A stretch of 34,833 nt of DNA from an uncultured bacterium (GTDB lineage Bacteria; Patescibacteriota; Gracilibacteria; Absconditabacterales; Absconditicoccaceae). A model generated the notes under the pieces. The model saw only the letters and a list, made by a program, of their open reading frames with translations, was not told where the DNA came from and did not search any database. Positions 2,308 through 28,046 of this stretch are shown one piece after another; within the stretch, counting starts at the first letter, position 1, and every line of letters starts with the position of its first letter. Location: assembly GCA_947170225.1 (NCBI GenBank), contig CAMVSQ010000011.1, positions 1 to 34,833 on the forward strand, given 5' to 3'. Both the position numbers and the translations under genes were made by a program.

Positions 2308-3102
2308 ATGAAAATCACATCACGAAATGTAAACGGAATTAGAGCGGTTTTAAATAAATGATTTTGCGAATGGGTACAAAAAGATGACCCAGATATTTTA
2401 TGCTTACAAGAAACTAAAGCATTTGAAAACCAAATTCCAGTAGAATTGAAATATGCACTCAGAGATTACAATTATATTTGGCACACAGGGACAAGACCTT
2501 GATATGCCTGAACCACAATTTTTTACAAAAAAAACTTGAAAATAATTTCTACAAAAAACACATTCGAAAATTTTTCAAAATTTAATGAAGATGGTAGAGT
2601 AGTGGAACTAACTTTCAAAAACAATGATACAGAAATTATGCTATTGAACATATATTTCCCAAATGGATGAACAAGAGCTGATTGAACAGAAATGCTAAGT
2701 TATAAATTAGATTTTTATGAAGATATGATAAAATATGTAAATTCACACAGAGAAAATGGAAAAGAAATTATAATGACTTGAGACTTCAATATTTGCCACG
2801 AACCAATCGACATTGCCAGACCAGAAGAAAATGCAAATTCAATCTGATTTCTTCCAATTGAAAGAGCAGAAATGGATAAATTACAAAAAAATTGATATAC
2901 AGACGTTTTCCGCTACCTAAATCCAGAATTAGCAAATAAATATACTTGGTGGTCATATAGAGCTTGAGCCAGACCAAGGAATATCTGACGGAGACTCGAC
3001 TATTTCCGAGTTTCAGAATGAATATTAAAATCAGTAAAAAATATGGAACATCAAGAATTCATCCTCTGATCCGACCATTGCCCAATTAGCTTGATCTTTT
3101 AG
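2308..3102 (+). CDS. xth: Exodeoxyribonuclease III (AP endonuclease)
   Basis: 264 residues, normal for the Xth/ExoA family. All family blocks appear in order: RNVNGIRA near residue 6, LCLQETKA with the metal-binding Glu at 35, [57 protein letters not shown] and the C-terminal GSDHCPI with the catalytic His. The family removes 3' blocks and cuts at abasic sites in base-excision repair. Glycines in TGDFN, YAG and GSDH are encoded by TGA. It is the last gene of the first operon; its TAG lies 28 nt before the structured repeat. Confidence 0.95.
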
Positions 3103-3129: not shown

Positions 3130-3318
3130 CATGCAATTTCACTGCAAGCTGCTCAAGTCAGTCCGTAAATATTTATGCGTACAACAGCGAACGAGCCTAT
3201 GCGAGTGAGCTTCGTATTCAATATACTTGAATGGAAAGCAGGACATTACTTGCTGAAATTGGCATGCCAAAAGAGAGCACTTTTTCTCCAATTTTCTTGC
3301 TCTGGAGAAAAATTGGAC
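3130..3318. repeat. Structured dispersed repeat, copy 1
   Basis: The first part (3130-3268) matches 27279-27423 closely, with an internal difference of a few bases. It is bounded by imperfect terminal inverted repeats: CATGCAATTTCACTGCAAG at the left, and the complement of CATGCCAATTTCAGCAAG at the right. The following stretch (3269-3318) diverges from copy 2 in sequence but keeps a four-arm layout. Arm AGAGCA (3274-3279) pairs with TGCTCT (3298-3303), and TCCAATTTT (3287-3295) pairs with AAAATTGGA (3309-3317). The arms interleave as in an H-type pseudoknot. It is more GC-rich than its surroundings and lies between convergent genes. Short ORFs inside it, on both strands, do not look coding. 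Confidence 0.85.
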
Positions 3319-3382
3319 CTGGGTTTGGGGCGGAGCGCTCAAAATCATATCTTTAAATAAAAGCCCTTAACTTACAATAAAA

Positions 3383-4606
3383 CTATTCAATCCAATACTT
3401 ATACAATTTTTCTTCTTTCAAACAATCAGCAACAGCGACTACTTCATCAATTTTTACATTTCTGATTTTAGCTAAAATATCATCCAGAGACTTAATTTCT
3501 CAATACAGCAAATACTGATTTCAGACAAAATTTGCCATCTCATCACTAGATTCTATTCACATCTGATACTGTCAAACATTAAATCAAATTGCCTTATCAA
3601 ACTCTTCTTTCGAAATATCTCAATTTGATATTTTTTTCAATTCTCACATAATCTTCTCTACTCAATAATCAAATCTTTCCTTTTCCAATCAAGCTCTAAC
3701 CATGAAAATTCAATCATGAGGTTGTGTATGGTGAGCCGCTCTGATATAATAACACAATCATTCTTTCTCCCTGATATTTTGAAATAATCTGGAAGACATA
3801 TTTCATCAAAGAATAGTCGAAAAAATCGAAGCAGCATACCTTTTTTCATCATTTCAATCAAATCATTTTGCTCAAATAATAATATGATTTTGCGCCGTTC
3901 ATTTCACAAATTTTCATTCTTTTTGCTTTGCCAATATTCATTGAAATTCTGGTCTATCAATTCTCTTTTTTTCAGGTAAATCAGCAAACAGAGTAGTAAT
4001 CTGATCTTCAACCGCTTTCTGATCAACAATCTTTCAAGCAACAATGATAATCAAATTATCTTTTGTGTACAAATCTAATTTATGATTTATCAAATCATCT
4101 CTAGTAAAATTTTTTATATTTTCAACTGGTCACAAAGTACTCCATCAGTAACTATTGTCTCAATAATAAAATTCTTGCCATTTATCCATCACAAGTGCCG
4201 TAGGCTGATCTTCGTACATTTTGACTTCTTGAATTACAACTCATTTTTCTCTCTCCATTTCAGCCTCAGGAAACTGCGCATTCATAATCATATCTCACAA
4301 AACATCCATTCATCTTTCCACAAAATCAGGAGCTGATTTCACATAATATCAAGCATAAGTATCTCATGTAAACGCATTAAATTCTCAACCAAAAGAATCT
4401 ACAGCCTCAGCAACTTCTTGCGGAGTCTTGTATCTTATTCATCATTTAAAAAAATTATGTTCCAAAAAATGACTAATTCAATTATTTTTCCTATTTTCAT
4501 ATATACTACCAGCTCTCGCTAAAATCAACATTGTCGTAGAATTTGAGTCTTCCATAGGGACAAAAATAGAGTCAATTCATGCTAGTTTTTTTATTTCATA
4601 CTTCAT
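3383..4606 (-). CDS. M16-family zinc protease (pitrilysin/processing-peptidase type)
   Basis: 407 residues. The inverted zinc motif HFLEH is at 46-50, and the third ligand Glu is at 127 (VVIQE), exactly the HxxEHx76E spacing. Conserved surroundings include ARAGSIYENRKNNGISHFLEH, FNAFTG, and in the C-terminal lobe LGGNMSSRLFQNIREKEGLCYYI, a typical non-catalytic-half motif. Members degrade small peptides or process exported proteins, usually as dimers of two such halves. The length fits a single-chain M16B subunit. No signal peptide is seen, so it is likely cytoplasmic. It stands alone on the minus strand, between the repeat and the promoter of the 4778 gene. Confidence 0.93.
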
Positions 4607-26036: not shown

Positions 26037-27248
26037 ATGGTTATCAACGAAGTAAAACCTGAATTTATACCAGGAGCAAAAATCAAAGTTTTGTGAATTG
26101 GTTGATGTGGAAACAAAGCTGTAAATAGGATGATCAGCGAATGACTACAATGAGTAGAATTTGTAGCTATAAATACAGATGCACAAGATTTAGCATGAAG
26201 TTTGGCTGACAAAAAAATCAATATCTGACTAAATTTGACTAAATGATTGTGAGCAGGAGCAAACCCTGAAATCGGTAGAAAAGCAGCTGAAGAAAGCGAA
26301 GCTGATATCAAAAATATGTTGCAAGACACGGATATGGCATTTATCACAGTATGAATGTGATGATGAACATGAACTTGAGCAGGACCAGTAATTGCAAATA
26401 TAGCAAAAGAAATGTGAATTTTGACCATATGAGTTGTGACAAAACCTTTTGAATTTGAAGGTAAAAAAAGAAAATTAAACTCTGAAGAATGATTAGCAAA
26501 AATCAAATGAGCAGTAGACACTTTGATCGTAATTCCAAACGAAAAAATATTTAATGTTATCGACAAAAAAACTACATTTAAACAAGCATTTTTGATGATA
26601 GATCAAATACTTTATTCTGGAATCAAAGGAATATCAGACTTAATCATAAAACCAGGTGACATCAATATCGATTTCGCCGATATCAAAGCTGTAATGCAAA
26701 ATTCATGAAATGCCTTGCTTGGTATCTGATATGGAGCAGGAGAAAAAAGAGCAGTAGATGCTGCAAGAAAAGCAATCGACAATCCATTGATGGAGACAAA
26801 TTTAGACAAAGCAAAAAGCATTATATTTGCTGTATCAGGATGATCAGATTTGACTCCTACAGAAGTGCAAGAAGCTGCAAGCATCATCGAAGAAATTATT
26901 GATGACGATGTAAATATGATATGGTGAATGTCTTTTGACGAAACAATGGAAGATGAAGTTCAAGTGACAATTATTGCAACATGATTTGAAGAACAAAGCT
27001 CTGAACCTGCACACAAAAAAATTTGATACGATGAACTATGAAGACCAAATGCTGAAAAATCAAATTATAGGCCTATGAAACAAAGTCAAGGATTTATTGA
27101 AAGGATAGTAAGCAGAGGAGTTGAAGAATCTCAACCTGAACCAAAAAATGAAAATAATGATTTCTTTAACGGAAATAAAATTCAAGACAATATAGACGAC
27201 GAAACCCCAGCCTTCATTAGAAAAAGATTAAACAACAACGAAAATTAA
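26037..27248 (+). CDS. ftsZ: Cell-division protein FtsZ
   Basis: 403 residues. N-terminal KVLGIGGCGNKAVNRM, then EFVAINTDAQDL, the tubulin signature GMGGGTGTGAGPVIA, VVTKPFEFEGKKR, and the T7 loop DFADIKAVM. The conserved C-terminal peptide is DDETPAFIRKRL, the site that binds FtsA. A spacer of about 60 residues separates the GTPase core from this tail. Almost every glycine of the tubulin signature is encoded by TGA, the clearest single proof of UGA-Gly decoding in this window. Ends in TAA. Confidence 0.97.
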
Positions 27249-27278: not shown

Positions 27279-27471
27279 CATGCAATTTCACTGCAAGCTA
27301 CTCAAGTCAGTCCATAAATATTTATTCGTAACGACAGCGAACGAGCCATCCTTGAGCGAGTGAGCTTCGTAGTCAATATGCTTGAATGTAATACTGAACA
27401 TTACTTGCTGAAATTGGCATGCCGGATTGAGAGTCTTTTTAGCCACTTTTGTGACTCTGGACAAAAGTGGC
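27279..27471. repeat. Structured dispersed repeat, copy 2
   Basis: Close relative of 3130-3318, in the same orientation. The first part (27279-27423) shares long identical runs with copy 1, such as CATGCAATTTCACTGCAAGC and GCGAGTGAGCTTCGTA, and the same terminal inverted repeats. The second part keeps the interleaved arms but with changed bases on both sides. AGAGTC (27430-27435) pairs with GACTCT (27453-27458), and GCCACTTTTG (27442-27451) pairs with CAAAAGTGGC (27462-27471). It occupies most of the 360-nt gap between ftsZ and the epsilon-like gene. The rest of that gap (27472-27608) is plain AT-rich DNA except for a short GC patch (CCGCCGGAGGC). Confidence 0.85.
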
Positions 27472-27608
27472 CCGCCGGAGGCAAAAAGAAGCTATAAAAT
27501 TAAAATATAATATTTATCAAAATTTCAAAAAAAGTTTTGAATATTAAGATAAAATTATTATGCTAATGTTGATACTAATAGTTTTGAAATTTATAACAAA
27601 AATAAATT

Positions 27609-28046
27609 ATGCATTTAAAAATTTCAAGTCCAGAGAAAATAATATTTGAAGGCGAAATTCATAAAATAATTTTACCTACAGAACTTGGTGACATCATAAT
27701 CAAACCTTGACAAAAACCAATGGTAATGCCACTAAAACCTGGTATAATTACAATTTCTGCCAAAGGAAAAATAAAAGAAAAAGACTTTGTATTTTCAAAT
27801 GAGTCAATATCTATAAGTATCTCCAAATGAATGGCTTTTGTAAATGAGGATTTAGTAAAAATCGCTACAACTGTAGCTACTACAAAAATATCACAAGATG
27901 AAAAGCAGTTAAAAGATAAAAAAATGAAATTAGAAAAAGAAATCAGAGAATTGAGAAAAAAGGGGAGTCTGGAAGAGATAGAAAATTCGCTGATAAAACT
28001 TGAAAAAGTAAATGCAGACCTAAAATTACACGCAATCAACAAATAA
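27609..28046 (+). CDS. ATP synthase epsilon-subunit-like protein (orphan)
   Basis: 145 residues, the usual size of AtpC. The N-terminal beta-sandwich pattern fits: LKISSPEKIIFEGEIHKIILPTELGDIIIKPGQKPMVMPLKPG, compared with the VxxPExxlfxGeAxxVxlPtxxGexgILpgHaPlvt pattern. The C-terminus is a Lys/Glu-rich helical hairpin (about 95-143), as in epsilon. No other ATP synthase subunits are nearby. The protein could serve an ATP synthase encoded elsewhere or be a lone epsilon-like domain with another role. Only two in-frame TGA codons. A hairpin terminator lies 5 nt after the stop. Confidence 0.72.

Follow-up and report, generated by a model that had tools for sequence, protein, structure and literature searches.

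The interleaved helices noticed in a 34,833-nucleotide stretch of DNA (the window, meaning that whole stretch) belong to a larger structure. The sequence-only reading had proposed a candidate pseudoknot; the analysis adds that this pseudoknot forms the 3' module of a larger unit dispersed in the genome, and that units with different 5' domains and other phyla share the module. The fold recurs in related and unrelated bacteria and in phages, which suggests a family of structured and probably mobile elements that has so far gone undescribed. The reading that we prefer, at a probability of about 45%, is a new family of non-autonomous dispersed mobile structured elements that share a U-rich-loop pseudoknot as their 3' module; it draws on observed structure and covariation, dispersal, presence or absence at gene junctions, varied 5' domains and a strand-orientation bias. 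If it is right, an intergenic repeat skipped by annotation amounts to a structured family conserved across phyla, structural studies gain a compact pseudoknot whose compensatory variants occur naturally, and the unit offers a test case for how non-autonomous, seemingly enzyme-less elements spread in a fixed orientation to replication.

Two copies in the window

The window corresponds to contig C11 in a host genome of 0.95 Mb and 24 contigs, whose genes are opened by code 25 (TGA = Gly). Its two pseudoknots are homologous parts of one intergenic repeat of about 215 bp, forming the 3' end of copies that start at CATGCAATTTCA (3130 and 27279). Direct reading found the arms of both copies as they had been described, in the order A-B-A'-B'. 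The motif CTCTGGA, which had been called constant, is indeed shared by the two window copies, but its constancy does not extend to the full set of copies.

Features around copy 1:
2308-3102, xth, left neighbour of copy 1
3130-3344, + strand, first copy of the dispersed unit, comprising 5' domain, pseudoknot and tail hairpin, flanked by xth and the M16 gene
3130-3148, + strand, P1 5' strand (CATGCAATTTCACTGCAAG), partner 3249-3266
3249-3266, + strand, P1 3' strand (CTTGCTGAAATTGGCATG), partner 3130-3148
3274-3279, + strand, helix A 5' strand AGAGCA, read directly, with covariation
3280-3286, + strand, loop 1 CTTTTTC, read directly
3287-3295, + strand, helix B 5' strand TCCAATTTT, read directly, with covariation
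3298-3303, + strand, helix A 3' strand (A') TGCTCT, read directly, with covariation
3309-3317, + strand, helix B 3' strand (B') AAAATTGGA, read directly, with covariation
3318-3346, + strand, tail with a small hairpin (TTTGGGG CGGAGCG CTCAAAA), seen in the sequence
3383-4606, minus strand, M16 peptidase gene, convergent, right neighbour of copy 1

Features around copy 2:
26037-27248, FtsZ gene (ftsZ), left neighbour of copy 2
27279-27485, + strand, second copy of the dispersed unit, flanked by ftsZ and atpC
27279-27297, + strand, P1 5' strand, partner 27404-27421
27404-27421, + strand, P1 3' strand, partner 27279-27297
27430-27435, + strand, helix A 5' strand AGAGTC, read directly, with covariation
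27436-27441, + strand, loop 1 TTTTTA, read directly
27442-27451, + strand, helix B 5' strand GCCACTTTTG, read directly, with covariation
27453-27458, + strand, helix A 3' strand (A') GACTCT, read directly, with covariation
27462-27471, + strand, helix B 3' strand (B') CAAAAGTGGC, read directly, with covariation
27472-27485, + strand, tail with a small GCC-GGA-GGC hairpin, seen in the sequence and found again in other copies
27609-28046, AtpC gene (atpC), right neighbour of copy 2

Covariation of the interleaved helices

A single copy means little, because a loose A-B-A'-B' descriptor finds many chance sites in this AT-rich genome: it matched 155 sites in the host's 0.95 Mb, against 64-83 in order-1 Markov sequence, and a match to so unspecific a descriptor was rejected as proof of a fold. 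Single-sequence RNA folding was uninformative (z -0.41 and -2.26; the folds were nested, with the interleaved pair absent), and the folding energy of copy 1 was unremarkable.

Across nine own-genome copies, 92.4% of cells are paired compared with 75.4 ± 2.3 in shuffles, both sides have changed at nine of the 15 pairs, and doubly changed cells number 20 against 6.4 ± 2.0; sliding the partner by one column lowers the pairing from 92% to about 50%. For helix B, 82 distinct rows, found with and fitted to the same structure so that the figures favour this helix, gave 99.1% paired cells, both-side changes at six of ten pairs and 138 doubly changed cells where shuffles gave 42. Helix A was left out of the covariance model, and its longest Watson-Crick match over 89 non-redundant modules averages 3.11 bp against 2.59 ± 0.07 (0 of 2000 permutations).

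The claim that both helices changed on both strands while staying paired was borne out, as A and B show double compensatory changes. In the wider alignment of all copies and relatives, the complete copies retain helix B and show many compensatory changes in it; helix A also covaries there, in a partner-specific manner, but it is short (3-6 bp) and weak in some relatives, with barely 2-3 bp in the CTAG subgroup. Since helices A and B covary, both the H-type order and selection on a folded RNA or single-stranded DNA, as proposed from the first two copies, are supported, and selection on the fold is the firm part of the interpretation.

Double changes could also arise without selection on the fold, through template switching in quasi-palindromes, where one arm is copied onto the other. 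Arm-copying predicts that wobbles and mismatches are rare, as they are in helix B (nine G-T or A-C in about 200 cells), but two interleaved stems in fixed order, a T-rich loop and the TACTTTT core persist across many genera, several phyla and unrelated 5' domains, and we hold this origin to be very improbable.

The ten GTGAGC units of two relatives, G027 and G035 (mean column identity 95%), show double changes at four pairs of the P1 domain; their single-side intermediates are all G-U in the sense strand, and the two non-standard cells sit at one poorly aligned pair. The sense strand as the folding strand is suggested rather than proven, because helix B has no excess of G-T over A-C (four against five in about 200 cells of all copies).

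Copies and modular architecture

The host genome contains 11 long copies of the repeat; in one (L009) the contig stops ahead of the pseudoknot, and in another (L008) loop 1 carries an insertion. The true copy number is probably higher, because three contigs (C7, C10 and C18, with loci L016, L009 and L015) end inside the repeat. Most copies that were read have a stem-closed, sequence-variable 5' domain, judged by eye, with helix A following directly or a few bases on; then a T/U-rich loop leads into helix B (core TACTTTT/AAAAGTA), after which come A', B' and frequently a small hairpin in the tail. Loop 1 is T-rich in nearly all copies, and the type of tail varies from copy to copy.

The P1 strands are invariant among type-I copies and so lend P1 no covariation support within that type. 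Variants of the closing stem read GTGAGC...GCTCAC, CCAGATGCA...TGCATCTGG and GTCGATTG...CAATCGAC, and that of Ilyobacter reads GAATTTTCAAGTC...GACATTTGAAAATTC; by eye, no closing 5' stem is evident in the Microviridae modules and the tandem Limosilactobacillus (L.) reuteri modules. Units with different 5' domains have the same pseudoknot module, about 45 nt long, in common. A covariance model of helix B (R1) returned 14 good matches within the own genome; four of these lack the type-I 5' domain (C4:12815-, C4:13900-, C7:4112+ and C1:136000+).

The first 27 nt of the unit also stand alone at three loci, L012 (C5:7268), L013 (C4:16903) and L014 (C4:47908), where they adjoin other palindromic repeats, of the form GTCATTTCGA...GAAATCC; repeats of this form border several full copies as well. 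At L128 (G199), the module is followed by tandem partial copies of its 3' half (TTACCGGACAAAAGTAACAAAGAG).

Distribution in the class, other phyla and phages

A DNA-similarity search found long copies in none of the 352 other genomes of the class, and weak matches in G015, G009 and G027 were read as chance matches to coding-like sequence. The R1 model at E <= 0.01 detects the pseudoknot in 21 of the family's 49 genomes, the own genome counted, with zero matches in the same-genus genome G001. Class-wide, at E <= 0.002, matches occur in 27 of 353 genomes. Seven of these lie outside the family, and some of their matches (L126 and L127) look like chance. Exact-pattern scans with the 5' domain in virus and genome collections returned nothing relevant, the sole match, in Pollutimonas, being chance, and permissive self-BLAST gave only noise.

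Pseudoknot copies are also present in Fusobacteriota, Bacteroidota, Bacillota, Acinetobacter, two Microviridae and virus contigs. The module comes with a matching helix A in Ilyobacter, Parabacteroides, Aureibacter, Acinetobacter, an L. reuteri plasmid, the two Microviridae and most of nine virus contigs; because these contigs were retrieved by a pattern that fixed helix B, only helix A is independent evidence in them. Four virus-contig matches (L188, L190, L191 and L195) are plain hairpins without helix A and were discarded. Ilyobacter polytropus, a cultured carrier, has the unit at 16 places on one replicon, and the Ilyobacter module has 40 identical bases in common with one Parabacteroides module. 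On the L. reuteri plasmid pAN417D (L176 2800-3035), three to four tandem pseudoknot modules directly precede a NikA-like gene, which is followed by a relaxase gene.

This tandem array, the H-type fold and the position of the pseudoknot at the unit's 3' end could indicate kinship with type III antitoxin RNAs (ToxI-like pseudoknots) or with the RNAs that guide TnpB/Cas12-type nucleases. ToxI and CptI are likewise small H-type pseudoknots with loop contacts. In ToxI, repeats stand in tandem ahead of a toxin gene (PMC5086642). Nearly all copies here, however, are single modules that adjoin ordinary genes, with no adjoining toxin gene and no tandem repeats before an endoribonuclease toxin gene; the L. 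reuteri array itself leads into the NikA-like and relaxase genes, and the Cas12f1/TnpB-type domain of a cognate nuclease (PF07282) has no match in the own genome. Such kinship is, in our judgement, hardly credible.

Turnover and probable mobility

Comparison of related genomes makes mobility of the unit appear well supported. In the congener G001, the xth and M16 genes almost touch, compared with 280 bp including the unit in the own genome (G000), and ftsZ and atpC lie about 100 bp apart, with no unit, compared with 360 bp. These differences would reflect insertion here or loss there; insertion is the simpler reading, because G001 and other family genomes are without the module. Between G027 and G035, one G027 unit is missing in G035, and two orthologous loci carry the unit at the same place and in the same orientation but with a swapped 5' domain. 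In G027, which represents a sister genus, unit copies are about 95% alike, their flanks differ, and divergence begins where the structure ends. No target-site duplication was established for the units.

The free divergence of G027 sequence past B', while the unit stays alike, is also what an RNA element at transcript 3' ends would show, serving stability, processing or termination and kept by selection in many places, with dispersal secondary. Such a role would suit the intergenic, gene-oriented module of the two Microviridae and the six of 11 type-I units that start at most about 55 bp from the stop codon of a same-direction gene. Three own units (L006, L007 and L008), however, are antisense to both neighbours, no canonical terminator T-run follows B', some relatives have a separate terminator-like hairpin and T-run between gene and unit, and the units lie on the C-rich strand whatever the gene direction. 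We regard this explanation as rather unlikely.

Orientation on the chromosome

Of the 16 units in the own genome, 15 are found on the C-rich strand, judged by negative GC skew over ±20 kb, among them all 11 of type I; the lone exception lies in weak skew, and the sample amounts to about ten contigs, because units sharing a contig are not independent. Gene direction fails to explain this orientation, since the own genes have only a mild strand preference (308 to 251). Among nine units of G027, six clearly and one weakly agree with C-rich-strand orientation, and two are unclear. Agreement was found in 14 of 20 stretches from other relatives (12 of 14 where the skew is at least 0.05), and the bias is weak in short flanks of relatives, at 46 of 73. 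The leading strand was assumed from GC skew, and the sense strand of the unit is the C-rich one.

An orientation bias relative to replication is known from several transposons (PMC5371812), and the unit might be a single-stranded DNA signal that folds and is mobilised by a transposase or recombinase in the manner of IS200/IS605, REP or attC, with no role for RNA. Its occurrence in ssDNA phages and ahead of a relaxase gene points the same way, as does the near absence of wobble pairs from helix B. The orientation of IS200/IS605 elements follows replication, with IS608 using the lagging-strand template (PMC5371812), and their non-autonomous derivatives resemble the unit in having folded ends, needing no inverted terminal repeats and tracking replication. 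If leading strands are G-rich, however, the sense strand of the unit is the leading-strand template, the opposite of IS608; the G-U intermediates are in the sense strand; and the own 94%-complete genome has no match to PF01797 (Y1_Tnp, Y1/HUH transposase), which control genomes matched, and lacks the TnpB-type domain.

REPs are palindromes of 20-50 nt preceded by GTAG (PMC8266576). Like REP/REPIN with TnpA-REP (RAYT), the unit is short, structured, intergenic, multi-copy and probably non-autonomous, but it measures about 130-215 bp with interleaved stems, its own genome is without Y1_Tnp, and inspection found no GTAG directly ahead of a 20-50-nt palindrome in it. Movement as a single-stranded DNA signal, one of the two main rivals beside the RNA 3'-end element, is an unlikely account in our view.

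At gathering cut-offs, Rfam 15 has no match in the window or in 20 unit loci, and for five records from other phyla its only matches were two to snoRNAs, at chance level. A literature search by sequence words found no description of the element, though the wider literature may hold one. Beyond the H-type fold, the sequences point to no known family.

A possible route of spread

For the mobile structured element that we prefer, copies would spread among intergenic sites at replication forks via an RNA or a single-stranded copy of the sense strand, the pseudoknot would be a recognised or protected 3' terminus, and the mobilising enzyme would act in trans. Hypothetical U.A-U triples of loop 1 with helix B may stiffen the pseudoknot. 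The RNA step, the triples and the role as terminus are the weakest parts of this explanation.

Triple-helix pseudoknots of the telomerase-RNA type have a U-rich loop 1 and an A-U-rich stem 2. The module matches them in stem order and in the positions of the U-rich loop and the A-U pairs, a resemblance of sequence pattern only, with no link to a reverse transcriptase here. RVT_1 is absent from the own genome and from several genomes with many copies, and it was rejected as a partner because its presence does not follow the element across genomes; a reverse transcriptase could have acted in trans and then been lost. SINEs share their 3' tail with their LINE and have an RNA-polymerase-III head. 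The unit is like them in its modular build of a constant 3' part and differing 5' parts, and differs in having neither a reverse transcriptase partner that we found nor an RNA-polymerase-III head. A bolder version, in which a widespread undescribed class in at least five phyla and ssDNA phages spreads via folded sense-strand RNA ending in a triple-helix pseudoknot, as the bacterial analogue of a SINE or as a new kind of RNA invading DNA at replication forks, strikes us as unlikely.

A type I-D CRISPR locus on the Aureibacter plasmid pAT6 has a module between its cas7d and cas5d genes (L183 1502-1536). One type of 5' domain, CAGCTGGAA...ACGACTAAGCAA, is similar in sequence across genera (L137, at G027:C1:202600-203800; L145-L147; L099; L120), and seems to contain a second interleaved pair, CCACG with CGTGG, ahead of the 3' pseudoknot.
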